The notes under the pieces are model-generated. The model searched no databases. It worked only from the letters and a program-made list of their open reading frames with translations, and was not told where the DNA came from. 64,000 nucleotides of DNA from Bacteroidota bacterium (GTDB lineage: Bacteria > Bacteroidota > Ignavibacteria > Ignavibacteriales > Melioribacteraceae): NCBI GenBank assembly GCA_018818165.1, contig JAHISP010000071.1:248001-312000 (forward strand). The letters run 5' to 3'. Below, piece after piece: positions 19,625-60,551 of the stretch (position 1 is the first letter of the stretch; each line of letters starts with the position of its first letter). The translations under genes and the position numbers were made by a program.

Positions 19625-19947
19625 TAAAATGTGTTGTTGTTGAATCTGTTAAAGTTTTTCAAGGGAAAACACCTTAGCAGCAAGTATGTATATTATAAAT
19701 AATAAATTGAGTCACTAAGAATAATAATTTAGAGAACATGATTATAAAAGAAGAAAAAGAAGTAAGTGGATATTAGTTCAGGAAAGATCTTAATGTAGTT
19801 CTTGATGTTCATAAAAAGCGTTTGATTGTTCACTTCTTCTAGAAATAAAATAAACCACTCCAAAAAGGTGGAAAATAAAAAATTAATTAATGGCGACCCC
19901 GATTTATAGGGATAACACGTATTTAGGCATTTTTGAGCGAGAATAAT
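19625..19947. other. Intergenic region before the methyltransferase gene
   Basis: About 320 bases with no open frame of interest. A purine-rich segment (GAAGAAAAAGAAGT, 19750-19763) and its approximate complement (CACTTCTTC, 19831-19839) could pair across 70 bases; CCAC/GTGG near 19855-19878 forms a weak hairpin. Nothing else recognised. Confidence 0.4.
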
Positions 19948-20508
19948 ATGAAAGATGAAAGAACTAGAATTTGCCCAGTTGAGCTTGCAAATTCACTCGA
20001 CAGTAAAATCAGAAGGTGGTTACAAAACCCAAAAAAAATATTAAATCCTTATGTTAAAGAAGGTATGAAGGTTCTTGATGTTGGTTGTGGTCCTGGGTTT
20101 TTTTCAATCGAATTAGCCAAAATGGTTGGTAAAAGTGGAAAAGTATTCTCAGTTGATTTGCAAGAAGGAATGCTTCAAAAAATTAGTAATAAAATTAAGG
20201 GAACACCTCTTGAAGGAATTATTAACCTTATAAAATGTGAACAAGATAAAATCATTGTACCTGAAAAAGTTGATTTTATATTAGCTTTTTATATGGTTCA
20301 CGAAGTTCCAAATAAAGAAATATTGTTTGAAACATTGAAAAATACTTTGAATGAAAAAGGAGAATTTTTAATTGTAGAGCCAAAATTCTTTCATGTTTCT
20401 CAAAAGGAATTTGATTTAACAATAGAAAAAGCAAAGGCTGTAGGATTTAAAGTAACAAAGGGTCCAAAGTTACCTTTTAGTTTTTCAACAATATTAAAAA
20501 ATATTTAA
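19948..20508 (+). CDS. Class I SAM-dependent methyltransferase
   Basis: 186 residues from ATG 19948 (a TTG at 19933 is also open). Motif I is VLDVGCGPGFFSIELAK, followed by VFSVDLQEGML (acidic ribose-binding residue) and FILAFYMVHEVPN, then LIVEPKFFHVS. This is a small-molecule or quinone/sterol-like methyltransferase of the Methyltransf_11/31 group; the N-terminal CPVELANSLDSKIRRWLQNP resembles the corrinoid- or arsenite-type group, but no substrate can be assigned. Alone between two repeat-rich stretches. Confidence 0.88.
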   Translation: MKDERTRICPVELANSLDSKIRRWLQNPKKILNPYVKEGMKVLDVGCGPGFFSIELAKMVGKSGKVFSVDLQEGMLQKISNKIKGTPLEGIINLIKCEQDKIIVPEKVDFILAFYMVHEVPNKEILFETLKNTLNEKGEFLIVEPKFFHVSQKEFDLTIEKAKAVGFKVTKGPKLPFSFSTILKNI

Positions 20509-20532
20509 CGTTATATAGTATTGATACCGAAG

Positions 20533-20556
20533 AAAACTGAGGTATAATTCAGTTTT
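20533..20556 (+). terminator. Hairpin after the methyltransferase gene
   Basis: AAAACTGA (20533-20540) and TCAGTTTT (20549-20556) form a perfect stem 25 bases after the stop, with only a short T-run. It immediately precedes the tandem hairpin array and is not one of its units. Confidence 0.5.
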
Positions 20557-20560
20557 TCGC

Positions 20561-20833
20561 CGTGATGAAATGCTCAAAGCGAGAAATAGTAAAAAGTGGA
20601 GCTTCGGACAAATGTCCAAAGCAAGAAAAAGCAAAAAGTGAAGCAATTATCAAATGATAATTGAGAGAAATATCAAAAAGGGAGTAATTATCAAACGATA
20701 ATTGCAAGACCAACAGAAAAGTGAAGCAATTATCAAATGATAATTGGAAGAAATATCAAAAAGGGAGCAATTATCAAACGATAATTGCAAGACCAAAAGA
20801 AAAGTAAAGCAATTATCAAATGATAATTGAGAA
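20561..20833 (+). repeat. Tandem array of seven hairpin units, period 42/41
   Basis: Seven units have tetraloops starting at 20568, 20610, 20652, 20693, 20735, 20776 and 20818, that is spacings 42, 42, 41, 42, 41, 42. Units 3, 5 and 7 contain CAATTATC-AAAT-GATAATTG; units 4 and 6 contain (C/T)AATTATC-AAAC-GATAATTG, so an 83-base dimer repeats. Unit 2 has a different stem, GCTTCGGAC-AAAT-GTCCAAAGC (8 of 9 pairs), with the same loop and register; unit 1 is degenerate. Purine-rich linkers (GAGAGAAATATCAAAAAG or CAAGACCAACAGAAAAG) join the hairpins. Not coding: the period is not a multiple of three and stops are frequent. Confidence 0.85.
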
Positions 20834-20857
20834 TATACACAAGAAAGGAATGAAGTA

Positions 20858-20947
20858 AGTAATTTGACAAGTAGAATATATTTATAGAAGTTACAAAGTG
20901 GAAATTTTGTTGAAAGTAGGAAAATGATATTATTAAATATGGGCTAA
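20858..20947 (+). pseudogene. Relic of a T9SS type A sorting domain
   Basis: In one frame this reads SNLTSRIYL-stop-KLQSGNFVESRKMILLNMG-stop. It matches the last 30 residues of T9SS sorting domains, for example SNLSSGVYFYRLKSRNFVETKKLILLR at the end of the very next gene. A single in-frame TAG (20885-20887) and a Gly-to-Arg change mark decay. It ends 2 bases before the ATG of the large T9SS cargo gene. No upstream body of the old gene remains: the hairpin array lies where it should be. Confidence 0.75.
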
Positions 20948-20949
20948 AA

Positions 20950-23900
20950 ATGAAGAAGACAATTATTTTATTTGCATTAATTTTTACATCTGTTATGTTT
21001 GGGCAAATTACTGAACAAACCGAAAAATATAGAAGTGATAACTATGGTAACATACAGAATCGAAGAGAATCTTTAATCGATGGTAATTTAGTACGTACAC
21101 TATTTTATAACAATGGCGAAATAGCTCAATGGCCCTTTTCACCATCTGGAGAATGGCCAAGTGGTTCAGGGCATGGCTATATTGATGGTATGACTTTATT
21201 AGTTGCAGCAGAAGTTTTAACTGACGATGGAGTTGTGCATCCATTACAAACATCATACAGAGAATGGATGGATCGAGATCCTGTAACTGGTACACTTTTG
21301 GGGTTTGAGCCTCTGCCTGGTTATTCAAGAATTAATTCTGAAGACTGTGCGATATCTACTAACCCTAATACATGGCCAGAGAGTTGGCCCAAAGTACTAC
21401 CAAATGTTGATGATAGTTGGAATGGTTATTGGTATGGATACTTTGGTCGTGGAGTTAAAAATGCTGATTTTGAGACATTTTATGTTATGGATGATTCAAA
21501 AGATGAGGAGTTTGCAAGGCCACCATATAATTTCCATCCAATAAGTTCTGATCATAATAGGGGAGGACTTGGACTTCGCGTAGAAGTAAGAAATTTTGCT
21601 TGGTCTGAACAAATAGCTGAGGATATTTCATTTTGGCACTATGATATTATAAACATATCAGACTATAGTTATGAAAAGACTATTTTCGGATTTTATATTG
21701 ATTCTGGAGTTGGTGGAAGTAATGATGGTGCAGATGATATGGCATCTTTTGACTCATTCCAAGATATGGTTTATTGTTTTGATTATGATGGGCTTGGTTA
21801 TCCAGGTTCTTGGAAAACTGGATATGTTGGATACGCATATTTAGAGAGTCCAGGTAATAATTATGATGGAATTGATAATGATGATGATGGCATGGTAGAT
21901 GAAAGCAGATCTGATTGGGTTGATAATGATGGAGACTGGGTTGGTTACACTGACTTAAATAACAATGGGAAATGGGATGCAGATGCAAATGAACCGCTAA
22001 ATGATGATGTTGGTGAAGATGGGCTTGGACCCTTAGACGCGCATTATATTTCACCAGATACTGGTGAAGGTGATGGAATCCCTACCGATGGTGAACCTAA
22101 CTTTGATAGAACAGATAAAGATGAATCCGATCAAATTGGTTTAACAAGTTTATCAATCTACCGCTTAGGTGATGGTGGAACTGGTGGTGGTTGGCCCAAA
22201 GATGACGAATCAATGTGGTTAAAGATGCAACCAGGTAATTTTGATACATTACTTCAAAAAGCAAACATAAGTATGGTTATGGGCTCAGGTCTGTTTCCAT
22301 TAAACCTTAATGACAGAGATAGATTATCAACGGCTATAATATTTGGGTATGATTTGGATGATTTGCTGTTGAATAAAATAGTAGCTCAGAATATTTATAA
22401 TAATAATTACAAAATAGATGAGGTTAAATATTTAATTCCAGTTACATTGACTTATCCAGTTTCAGACGATACAGTAAGTGGAATAATTGATGTCAAATGG
22501 AATACTGGTTATTACTCAAATCCGAAGACAATTACAAACATTTATATTTCAAGTGATGGTAGATATTTTGAAAAAATTGGTTCAGAATTAGCTAATTCTG
22601 GAAGTTTTAGCTTAAATACAGAGAACTATTCCGATGGAATATTTTACAAAATTAGAATTAATTGTTATGATGGACACCTCTTTGGCGAAGCAGAAACTGA
22701 AAGTAGGTTTATAATTAATAATGCTGGAAATGGAGTACCTCAAGCGAAATTTTACTCCCCAGCAGAGAAACAAAAAATAGAGGGAGAATATGAAATTATG
22801 TTTGTTGGTGGTGATGCAGACGGAGACAAATCAACTATTTCACTCTATTATGGGACTTCAATAAATTTTGATAACTCAAATCTTATTGTTGAAAATCTTT
22901 CAGACAATATTACATCATATCTTTGGAACACAATGGATGTAGCAAACAATTCACAGTATTATCTCTTTGCAAAAATTCAAAATAGTTTTAATAATGAAGT
23001 TGCTATATCAAAACCGTTTTCAATCGAGAATGATAGAAACCTTACAAAGGGTGAACTACTAACAACTAATAAATCCTCAAGAGGAACTGGTGATTTCTAT
23101 TTTTCATCAATAAACCCAAATGCAATTCTCGCAAATCAATATAGAATAGATTTTGTTGAATTAACAGATTCTACAGATATCGGTTATAATTTGTTTGATC
23201 TAAGCAATAATGAATACGTTTTTGAGAACCAAATAATAGGCTTGAAAAATGAAAGTCCCTTTTTCAATGGTGGAAGACTAACAATTTACAATGATACAGA
23301 AGAAAGAATTATTGATTCGTTAACTTATTGGGAAGTTGGGAATAGTAATTTATTAATATATGTGTTTCCAGATTATACTTCCCCTTCCCGAAATACAATT
23401 TGGGAGGAAGATTTTACACTCACATTTATGGATAGTGATTTATACACTACACCATTTTTTAGGCTTAAAAGTAACATCCAAATTATTTCAATGAGTGATA
23501 GTTCAAACGTTGATTATGAAATATTTGATAACGATTTGAGTGGGGATCTGACTTTCAATGATGAACTTGTAATAATAAAATATATAGGTACTGCATATAG
23601 ACTAACCTGGAGAATTCAGTTCAGTAATAATTTACCCCCAAATATTCAACCAATATTTCCTTCCACTGGAGATGTTTTTAAGATTACAACAACTAAAAAA
23701 TTCAAAGCAGGTGATCAAATATTCTTTAATACTGATATGTTAGTTGGAATACGAAAAAATGGATTAGATATTCCAACAGAATTTTCACTTTCACAAAATT
23801 ATCCAAATCCGTTTAACCCAAGTACGATAATTAAATATTCAATTCCACGTAGTGCAGAATACCACTCTGTGCAACATACAACATTAAAAGTGTTTGATAT

Positions 23901-24057
23901 TCTAGGTCGTGAAGTCGCGACGCTTGTAAATAAACAACAAAATGCGGGGAATTATGAGGTTATTTTTAATGCTTCAAATCTTTCGTCTGGTGTTTATTTT
24001 TATAGATTGAAAAGTAGAAATTTTGTTGAAACAAAGAAATTGATACTCTTGCGGTAA
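20950..24057 (+). CDS. T9SS type A sorting-domain secreted protein
   Basis: 1035 residues. Signal peptide MKKTIILFALIFTSVMFG; a large N-terminal domain; an Asp-rich, probably calcium-binding stretch at about 305-390 (NDDDGMVDES, DLNNNGKWDADANEP); Ig/FN3-like beta domains at about 495-700; and a C-terminal sorting domain from about residue 945 (SLSQNYPNPFNPSTIIKYSIP ... TLKVFDILGREVATLVN ... GVYFYRL). The last segment directs export through PorU-type T9SS and attachment to the surface. The family is common in Ignavibacteria; its activity is unknown. No clear ribosome site; the region upstream is a gene relic. Confidence 0.9.
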   Translation: MKKTIILFALIFTSVMFGQITEQTEKYRSDNYGNIQNRRESLIDGNLVRTLFYNNGEIAQWPFSPSGEWPSGSGHGYIDGMTLLVAAEVLTDDGVVHPLQTSYREWMDRDPVTGTLLGFEPLPGYSRINSEDCAISTNPNTWPESWPKVLPNVDDSWNGYWYGYFGRGVKNADFETFYVMDDSKDEEFARPPYNFHPISSDHNRGGLGLRVEVRNFAWSEQIAEDISFWHYDIINISDYSYEKTIFGFYIDSGVGGSNDGADDMASFDSFQDMVYCFDYDGLGYPGSWKTGYVGYAYLESPGNNYDGIDNDDDGMVDESRSDWVDNDGDWVGYTDLNNNGKWDADANEPLNDDVGEDGLGPLDAHYISPDTGEGDGIPTDGEPNFDRTDKDESDQIGLTSLSIYRLGDGGTGGGWPKDDESMWLKMQPGNFDTLLQKANISMVMGSGLFPLNLNDRDRLSTAIIFGYDLDDLLLNKIVAQNIYNNNYKIDEVKYLIPVTLTYPVSDDTVSGIIDVKWNTGYYSNPKTITNIYISSDGRYFEKIGSELANSGSFSLNTENYSDGIFYKIRINCYDGHLFGEAETESRFIINNAGNGVPQAKFYSPAEKQKIEGEYEIMFVGGDADGDKSTISLYYGTSINFDNSNLIVENLSDNITSYLWNTMDVANNSQYYLFAKIQNSFNNEVAISKPFSIENDRNLTKGELLTTNKSSRGTGDFYFSSINPNAILANQYRIDFVELTDSTDIGYNLFDLSNNEYVFENQIIGLKNESPFFNGGRLTIYNDTEERIIDSLTYWEVGNSNLLIYVFPDYTSPSRNTIWEEDFTLTFMDSDLYTTPFFRLKSNIQIISMSDSSNVDYEIFDNDLSGDLTFNDELVIIKYIGTAYRLTWRIQFSNNLPPNIQPIFPSTGDVFKITTTKKFKAGDQIFFNTDMLVGIRKNGLDIPTEFSLSQNYPNPFNPSTIIKYSIPRSAEYHSVQHTTLKVFDILGREVATLVNKQQNAGNYEVIFNASNLSSGVYFYRLKSRNFVETKKLILLR

Positions 24058-58743: not shown

Positions 58744-59790
58744 CTAATTACTTTTAACTATTTGTATTAAAGAATTATCAACAAGTTTCTGCTGACCCGT
58801 AACCACAATTTGTTCTCCTTCATTTAATCCGCTTGTCACTTCTACACCATTTCTTAAAAGTCTTCCGGTCATTACATGTTTTCTTACAGCTTTATTTTGA
58901 TTTACCACGTAAACAAAATTGTTCCCCTTTTCATCAACCAATACTGCTCTGCTTGGGACCAACAATCCCGAAGCTACATTTTGCTTATTAATTAAAACGT
59001 TACAAATCATTCCCGGTTTCATTTCATAGTTTCTATTTACAATACCTATTTTGATTTTATATGTGTGAGCTAGTGGATCAGCCATAACACCTATCTCCTC
59101 AACCGTTCCAGTGAACTCAGCATTATTCAATGCTGCGATTGTAATATTCGCTTTCTCTCCCTTTTTAATTGATGCGATTTCGTTTTCGGCTACCGGCACA
59201 CGTGCAAATACTTTTTCTATCTTTACAATATTGATAGATGTTAAATTCGGTATCGCAGCCATTCCCGGTTCTATTGCTCGTTTACCCACAACACCATCAA
59301 CCGGCGAGTAAAGGTTACAATCGTCTAAATTCTTTTTCGCAATTAATGTTGCAGATTTAGCTTGTTGAAGTCCGGTTTCAACTTCCACTAATTTTATTTC
59401 CGGAAGGTTGCCGTTTTTATACATCGGCAATAAGCGTTTATATGCGTCCTCAGCTTGTTTCTGAGTTGCCAAAGACATTTCGTAAGCGTTTTTATAGCTC
59501 TCATTATTTATTACTGCAAGAATCTGTCCCTTCTTAACAAAGTCTCCTTCCGAAACGAGAACTTTTGATACACTTCCAATTGTTGAAAAACTTAATGGAA
59601 TCGATTCGGATTCTTCGATTGTTCCGCTATAGGCAATTGCTTCACTTCCATTTATTTTTTTTGCTTGTTCAACTTCTACTTTAATTTCGGTATTATTTAG
59701 TGTGCTTTCTGTTTTACCATCAGAACAGCTCTGTAAAAAATAGCCAGTGCATGCAATGAGTAGATAAGTTAAGATTTTGTTTGTTTTCAT
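58744..59790 (-). CDS. RND efflux periplasmic adaptor (MFP), lipoprotein
   Basis: 348 residues: lipoprotein signal (ILTYLLIACTGYFLQSC, C22), beta-barrel and lipoyl segments (VSKVLVSEGDFVKKGQILAVINNE ... LYSPVDGVVGKRAIEPGMAAI), alpha-hairpin (ATQKQAEDAYKRLLPMYKNG), and the C-terminal NFVYVVNQNKAVRKHVMTGRL. Adaptor of the tripartite pump; first gene of the operon, 20-45 bases behind an operator-like motif. Confidence 0.95.
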   Translation of the reverse strand: MKTNKILTYLLIACTGYFLQSCSDGKTESTLNNTEIKVEVEQAKKINGSEAIAYSGTIEESESIPLSFSTIGSVSKVLVSEGDFVKKGQILAVINNESYKNAYEMSLATQKQAEDAYKRLLPMYKNGNLPEIKLVEVETGLQQAKSATLIAKKNLDDCNLYSPVDGVVGKRAIEPGMAAIPNLTSINIVKIEKVFARVPVAENEIASIKKGEKANITIAALNNAEFTGTVEEIGVMADPLAHTYKIKIGIVNRNYEMKPGMICNVLINKQNVASGLLVPSRAVLVDEKGNNFVYVVNQNKAVRKHVMTGRLLRNGVEVTSGLNEGEQIVVTGQQKLVDNSLIQIVKSN

Positions 59791-59858
59791 TTTATTCCTT
59801 TTAGTTAATTAGACAATATTTGTTTTTGGGTCGAAATCAGTTTAAAAAATTTTACATC
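59771..59858. repeat. Promoter/start-codon segment, copy A
   Basis: Contains the first codons of the adaptor gene (MKTNK) and its upstream operator. It is repeated imperfectly at 59901-59985 (offset 130, then 127 after an indel), so the regulatory segment has been duplicated. Confidence 0.7.
59809..59836. promoter_or_regulatory. TetR-type operator motif, site 1 (adaptor promoter)
   Basis: TTAGAC, 15 bases, GTCGAA. Half-sites TTAGAC and TTCGAC (reverse complement of GTCGAA) are near-palindromic. About 20 bases upstream of the adaptor ATG. Identical layout at sites 2 and 3. Confidence 0.65.
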
Positions 59859-59900
59859 ATATTGGAAATGAATCTTGTACCAACTATGAGTGGACAATTT

Positions 59901-59985
59901 GAGATTCTGTTTGTTTTCATTTTTTGTTTAGCCTATTAGACGATATATGTTTTTTAGTCGATTCCCGCATAAAAAATTTTAGAAT
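59901..59985. repeat. Promoter/start-codon segment, copy B
   Basis: Second copy of the segment at 59771-59858. It still begins ATGAAAACAAAC (minus strand) but then reads MKTNRISNCPL... for 22 codons to a stop, so it is a truncated start of the adaptor gene. It ends at the TetR stop codon. Confidence 0.65.
59936..59963. promoter_or_regulatory. TetR-type operator motif, site 2 (in the duplicate)
   Basis: TTAGAC, 15 bases, GTCGAT. Same spacing as sites 1 and 3. It lies in the duplicated segment between the TetR stop and the adaptor gene; it may help regulation or be a relic. Confidence 0.6.
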
Positions 59986-60551
59986 CCTTCAGCTATCACT
60001 CTTGTTGCAATATCTATCATTTCGTTATCATCATTATCAAAGAAGAGATATATAGATAATCCGCTGATCATTCCAACAATTACACTTGCAAATTTATTTA
60101 TCTCTGTATCTTTGATATAATTAAATTCTCCTGCTATATGTCCTTCTTTCAGAATTTCAATAATAATTGCTTTTTCTCTATCATTTAGTAGTTTAGAGGT
60201 TCTTGCGATAAACTCTTGATTTCCTTTTATCTCCCCGGAAACTAAAGAATAGAGACTAACAGATTTTTTTATTTCTTTCAACATTGTTTCTATATACTTT
60301 TTTAATTTCTCTTTCGAAGAAATTAAATCAACAGTAGAAGATTTTGCTTTGTGAATAATGTTACTAAGTTCAACTTGTACCAATAATTCAAAAATCTCAT
60401 CTTTACTTTTAAAATAATAATAAAGCGTACTTTTTCCTTTTCCGGCTTCATGAGCTATGTCTTCCATAGTTGTCTTATTTAAACCCCATTTTTGAAAGAC
60501 TCGCTTTGCAGCCTCAAGGATTGCGCTTTTTACTTCTTCATCTTTATTCAT
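59979..60551 (-). CDS. TetR-family regulator of the efflux operon
   Basis: 190 residues. N-terminal helix-turn-helix KSAILEAAKRVFQKWGLNKTTMEDIAHEAGKGKSTLYYYFKSKDEIF, then an all-helical ligand domain, ending in MIDIATRVIAEGF. It probably represses the MFP-RND-TolC genes downstream on the same strand and itself, since the same 28-base motif stands before both. No ribosome site is obvious beyond GGATAAATATT. Confidence 0.92.
   Translation of the reverse strand: MNKDEEVKSAILEAAKRVFQKWGLNKTTMEDIAHEAGKGKSTLYYYFKSKDEIFELLVQVELSNIIHKAKSSTVDLISSKEKLKKYIETMLKEIKKSVSLYSLVSGEIKGNQEFIARTSKLLNDREKAIIIEILKEGHIAGEFNYIKDTEINKFASVIVGMISGLSIYLFFDNDDNEMIDIATRVIAEGF

Follow-up and report, generated by a model that had tools for sequence, protein, structure and literature searches.

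The window analysed here, a 64,000-nucleotide stretch of the genome designated G000, carries a tandem array of short palindromes on its forward strand at positions 20561–20833. The array is flanked by two genes on the same strand, a small methyltransferase gene upstream (19933–20508) and a gene encoding a 1035-residue secreted protein downstream (20950–24057), both of which are probably bystanders. The secreted protein bears a Por_Secre_tail domain, the C-terminal signal of type IX secretion (T9SS), as expected from the initial annotation, which had placed the array upstream of a T9SS cargo gene. Directly after the stop codon of the methyltransferase gene, a conserved attC-like leader of the form TAACGTTATA...GATACCGAA...GAGGTATAATTC (20506–20560, forward strand) precedes the array. 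Elsewhere in the window, Tandem Repeats Finder (TRF) detects a 127-bp tandem repeat of 1.9 copies at 59756–60005.

The array consists of seven forward-strand units with a mean spacing of 41.7 bp, to which TRF assigns periods of 42 and 83. The tetraloops lie exactly where they had been placed, at 20568, 20610, 20652, 20693, 20735, 20776 and 20818, giving spacings of 42, 42, 41, 42, 41 and 42 bp, and the reported assignment of AAAT or AAAC to each loop agrees with the sequence. An 83-bp dimer, defined by the linkers, fits the array more closely than a 42-bp unit does (93% versus 77% matches in TRF), as had been proposed. Units 3 (20644–20663), 5 (20727–20746) and 7 (20810–20829) have the form CAATTATC-AAAT-GATAATTG. 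Unit 6 (20768–20787) carries the same arms around the other loop, CAATTATC-AAAC-GATAATTG, and unit 4 (20685–20704) reads TAATTATC-AAAC-GATAATTG, with one G-T pair, so that the common stem reported for units 3–7 holds. The unrelated stem described for unit 2 (20602–20621) is also present in an unchanged register, as CTTCGGAC-AAAT-GTCCAAAG, and belongs to a stem family common to arrays on contig C32 and in the genome G002. The count of seven hairpins stood only in part. Six units pair, but unit 1 (20560–20579; CCGTGATG-AAAT-GCTCAAAG) is a degenerate palindrome that by pairing score retains 4 of 8 pairs, and the array therefore comprises six intact hairpins and one degenerate relic.

The 441-nt intergenic stretch at 20509–20949, folded as RNA, has a z-score of −6.8 against 100 dinucleotide-preserving shuffles, none of which folds as well, and the array folded as single-stranded DNA has a z-score of −7.9 against shuffles. 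No Rfam family matches within the window at the gathering score, with only chance-level matches near the array. The array resembles a CRISPR in its tandem layout but lacks variable spacers between constant repeats, and TRF describes it as head-to-tail copies, in agreement with the initial annotation that it is not a CRISPR.

About ten further arrays, a lower bound, are found in G000, on contigs C26, C32 (two), C35 (three places), C36, C43 and C54, with the linkers and loop of the window array and different stems. G002, from the same genus, has arrays on at least C95, C121, C134 and C150, and others occur in G014, of another genus, and in G056, of another family of the order. Related genomes hold homologous arrays: a unit-model search of 146 of them found convincing arrays in G000, G002 and G056 only, among the matches listed; the G014 array was recognised by BLAST and inspection. 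The unit follows the pattern AAAAAGTGRAG, an 8-nt arm, AAAY, a second 8-nt arm and CAAGAAAAAGC, with constant flanks and loop. The arms come in three unrelated versions that occupy one register, namely CAATTATC/GATAATTG, CTTCGGAC/GTCCAAAG and CTTTGACT/AGTCAAGG. Selection on pairing, proposed initially from the stem of unit 2, is supported by double-sided changes at 7 of 8 pairs across 26 units from these three stem families. Over the same 26 units, the covariation score is 0.605 versus 0.247 in shuffles, and 82% of cells pair, compared with 62% in shuffles and 29–43% after a slide of one to three columns.

Arrays in G056, G014, G002 and two places in G000 lie upstream of genes that start like MEKINKLLSHARNTEVDTVS, all of which match Pfam PF19775 (DUF6261) with E-values near 1e-20. 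The family is rare, being present in 7 of 295 related genomes, and the genomes with convincing arrays (G000, G002, G056 and G014) all carry it. The relationship also holds in reverse, when upstream regions are read at DUF6261 genes picked without regard to arrays. Specifically, each of the four DUF6261 genes of G000 has an array, the two most similar genes using one palindrome type, and the two DUF6261 genes of G014 have two unrelated arrays. Outside the window's class, G563 and the genus around G530 have DUF6261 arrays of very different base composition. Units of linked and orphan arrays (those of L126 and L127 included, those of L123 excluded) were combined into a model, R1, which matches the window array and the DUF6261-linked arrays L126, L127 and L123; these have linker and loop in common.

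We measured periodicity at 53 DUF6261 loci, some in Ignavibacteria and the rest elsewhere in Bacteroidota, by taking the strongest autocorrelation lag in the range 20–79 on each side of the gene (900 nt upstream and 900 nt downstream). The best upstream lag is 41 or 42 at 48 of the 53 loci, which within a genus are related and not independent. The same lags are found downstream at 3 of 53 (about 2 expected by chance), in 3 of 60 flanks of RAYT genes and in 2 of 68 tiles of the window. A stricter threshold is passed by 39 of the 53 DUF6261 loci, by two RAYT flanks and by one window tile. Five loci depart from the 41–42 lag: L130, where the array is irregular with units of 40–42 bp, and L139, L140, L174 and L175, which show no array. 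Several families show the association, and the arrays of different groups look unrelated in sequence: each is private to a locus or a group of close paralogues, and the period is fixed. Some loci in one genus share both the array and the flanking genes, indicating vertical descent. At L156, L158, L159 and L161, a conserved short reading frame around ACGATGAAAAAA, possibly a leader peptide, lies just before the array.

The window array has no DUF6261 gene beside it, the nearest PF19775 gene on the contig being about 177 kb away, and is thus an orphan. Arrays without DUF6261, counted in a census that is a lower bound, occur in G000 (the window array and others), in G002 and in G700, of an unrelated genus, where two extra arrays share the palindrome type of a linked array and lie in unrelated intergenic regions, one of them upstream of mutL. 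The T9SS association suggested at the window is not general, as other orphan arrays precede unrelated genes, for example proB, tnaA and mutL (names read off the sequence). Since the neighbours of orphan arrays have no obvious common feature, the T9SS gene is likely to be a bystander, or else a target that was recruited; the true partner of the arrays is DUF6261.

The attC-like leader precedes five arrays in G000 and one in G002 and is also found without arrays. An integron attC origin of the arrays was considered, given an attC-like leader and a genome with integrase remnants, and was rejected because leader and arrays each also occur without the other. Leader copies (TAACGTTATAAGGATTGATACC...GGTATAATCC) are present near the ends of unrelated genes at L036 (positions 7863, 9204 and 11217; G000:C61), L037 and L040, and on C61 at least three copies within 4 kb resemble gene cassettes. 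Broken integron-integrase remnants lie at L049 (G000:C85:105619), L051/L046 (C35:386211), L050 (C69) and L052 (C43), the C85 remnant being split by GIY-YIG-like reading frames with repeated C-terminal pieces.

Across the arrays, the dyad-to-dyad spacing averages 41.38 bp (sd 0.56). With 10.4–10.5 bp per turn of B-DNA, consecutive dyads are about four helical turns apart. Within arrays, conservation mirrors itself around the dyad: a core lies at ±2–6 and a second pair of boxes at ±14–17, the latter being found in 27 of 35 arrays (p = 6e-5). In the mean conservation profile, the strongest harmonic is four cycles per unit, about one box per helical turn. Some arrays, such as L170, hold two dyads per unit.

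The nature of the mismatches should tell DNA from RNA. A selected sense-strand RNA hairpin would tolerate G-U and not A-C, whereas selected DNA would tolerate both equally, and in RNA helices G-U is far commoner than A-C. With the arms placed by Watson-Crick pairs only, imperfect pairs on the sense strand of linked and orphan arrays amount to 63 G-U and 66 A-C, to be read against this general expectation for RNA; linked arrays contribute 48 and 52, and orphan arrays 15 and 14, respectively. In the L141, L149 and L177 group, a canonical Bacteroidota promoter, TTTG-19-TATATTTG, lies downstream of the array, which would place the array outside the mRNA there, and the retained −7 element at L148 indicates that the promoter is probably downstream of the array at this locus too. 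Other loci have promoter-like sequence before the array, so that the placement relative to transcription, as read from sequence, varies; in several of them the array probably lies downstream of the promoter and may hence be transcribed too. The palindromes resemble features of DNA more than hairpins of RNA. The RNA-protein platform put forward in the initial annotation is not supported, in light of the missing G-U excess and the downstream promoter, and its alternative of a DNA binding array is the better supported of the two.

An RNA system would have the array give rise to 41–42-nt hairpin RNAs that bind DUF6261, either as TIGR-Tas-like guides or as an RNA antitoxin resembling those of type III toxin-antitoxin systems. 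Its appeal lies in a tandem array adjoining a small protein gene, with locus-private repeats of constant unit length, and in the several arrays that seem to sit downstream of promoter-like sequence. TIGR-Tas, which produces processed 36-nt RNAs and includes tandem stem-loop array variants, is on paper the closest architecture, and the TasA arrays look alike (PMC12045711): the unit length is similar, one edge is constant, the loop is short and A-rich, and a single small protein gene adjoins. However, TIGR-Tas has two variable spacers per unit, whereas the arms here are mutually complementary and near-identical between units, which are near-copies; no Nop domain was matched in a Pfam scan of 12 DUF6261 members, no PADLOC family scored above chance, and the arrays bear no RNA-level signature. 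The type III systems ToxIN and CptIN, in which the repeat RNA neutralises the toxin, likewise have repeats specific to the locus immediately ahead of a protein gene, but the repeats here act as DNA palindromes at a fixed period of 41–42. As a toxin of this type DUF6261 was rejected, with no match to ToxN/AbiQ, CptN or TenpN families and only PF19775 found across Pfam, NCBIfam and PADLOC. The balanced mismatches and the promoter downstream of the array in one gene group also speak against an RNA system, which we consider unlikely.

The balanced mismatches would also fit an explanation without function, in which slippage creates the tandem copies and templated quasi-palindrome correction keeps the arms complementary. 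Palindrome correction would also produce G-U and A-C in equal measure and double-sided changes in related units, and orphan arrays can combine several stem types. This explanation accounts neither for arrays at 48 of 53 DUF6261 genes and not in control regions, nor for the outer conserved boxes and a 41–42 bp period that stays fixed despite unrelated sequences, and we regard it as very improbable.

In the DUF6261 proteins, PF19775 is the only Pfam family above cut-off, and nothing significant was found in NCBIfam or PADLOC. The searches revealed no transposase motif or family match and no recognisable DNA-binding domain, and a sequence search of the PDB gave no match. DUF6261 is absent from the phage and plasmid collections searched and from four viral-contig scans. 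An AlphaFold2 model of a 188-residue stretch of L122, computed without an alignment, reached a pLDDT of 44 and was not used. In some DUF6261 loci of the G530 genus (L135, L170 and similar ones), the array comes immediately after a helix-turn-helix-like gene, whose product could be an alternative binder.

The arrays also recall REP/BIME elements and their RAYT transposases, in which a gene-linked palindrome family is accompanied by dispersed orphan copies in one genome. DUF6261 would then mobilise or amplify cognate single-stranded hairpins as selfish palindromes, the orphans being non-autonomous copies. Such a role would fit the scattering of orphan arrays over unrelated loci of G000, G002 and G700, the possession of an own palindrome type by each DUF6261 locus, as each RAYT has its own REP, and the two orphan arrays on C32, which share distinctive units in a different order, indicative of recombination between arrays. 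It would also fit the change of arm sequence with pairing kept, seen within single arrays at window unit 2, L149 and L177, which agrees better with recognition of a hairpin or cruciform shape, or with palindrome correction, than with sequence-specific binding. For this reason a REP-like origin keeps a substantial share of our belief, although on balance we think it rather improbable. The arrays here are direct tandem repeats with a strict helical period, without GTAG-tagged hairpins, and DUF6261 has neither a Y1 transposase motif nor a transposase family match; vertical descent of some arrays with their flanking genes also speaks against it, and the helical period and symmetric conservation are left unexplained. 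Some arrays of the G530 genus start with CGTC, like the CGTC-tagged REPs without a known transposase (PMC3733652), but differ from these in their stems and direct tandem arrangement.

True REP/RAYT pairs exist in these genomes and are separate from the DUF6261 arrays. In G000, four RAYT-like Y1 transposase genes (L058–L061) lie beside other palindromes, for example ACCTCGGAGGT and CACAGATTAGTAATCTGTG, in apparent REP/RAYT pairs. The G014 array adjoins a RAYT gene, but a RAYT partnership was rejected: this RAYT family comes with palindromes of its own, of the GTAGAGACG type, at the majority of 30 loci, and its presence beside the G014 array is therefore probably due to chance. The family occurs in 124 of 196 relatives (L062–L091), and many members carry a GTAGAGACG...CGTCTCTAC palindrome inside their own coding sequence.

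We give roughly even credence to the following reading. A DNA binding array, acting as an operator- or iteron-like strip, would normally be situated ahead of a DUF6261 gene, and the window array would be an orphan copy of one, acting in trans. A symmetric protein would bind the palindromes along one face of the helix, and the simplest choice of binder would be DUF6261 itself. Units spaced four turns apart would be bound cooperatively, generating an iteron- or operator-like nucleoprotein strip, and the bound array would control its DUF6261 gene. Orphan arrays, including that of the window, would serve as trans sites that mark or regulate distant loci.

Iterons, centromeres (parC/parS) and multi-operator arrays are bound by a protein encoded next door. 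The DUF6261 arrays resemble them in having even repeats next to the gene that presumably encodes the binder, with extra sites in trans, and in the helical phasing evident from the spacing of 41.38 bp (sd 0.56) and the four conserved cycles per unit. They differ in a unit that spans four turns and contains an internal dyad, in a repeat sequence that changes at almost every locus, and in a partner without a known DNA-binding domain. More tentatively, DUF6261 and its array may form a new class of two-part bacterial system, the small helical protein polymerising or docking along its own ladder of palindromes at four-turn intervals, with orphan ladders as extra docking sites. If true, such a system could serve in organising the genome, in segregation or in defence, or could be a new mobile element.

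The presence of evenly spaced palindromes every ~41.5 base pairs before almost every examined DUF6261 gene suggests an undiscovered protein-DNA system across Bacteroidota. As far as our literature search shows, the phylum-wide and statistically strong pairing of an uncharacterised family with a DNA array of fixed geometry and free sequence is unreported, and DUF6261 is mentioned in one of 5.39 million papers searched. The simple count of wobble asymmetry used here can reveal an RNA-looking hairpin array as a DNA feature. DUF6261 gains a first testable function, with the prediction that its paralogues, dozens in number, are each specific for their own array, which would make the family a natural set for the study of co-change in protein-DNA specificity.
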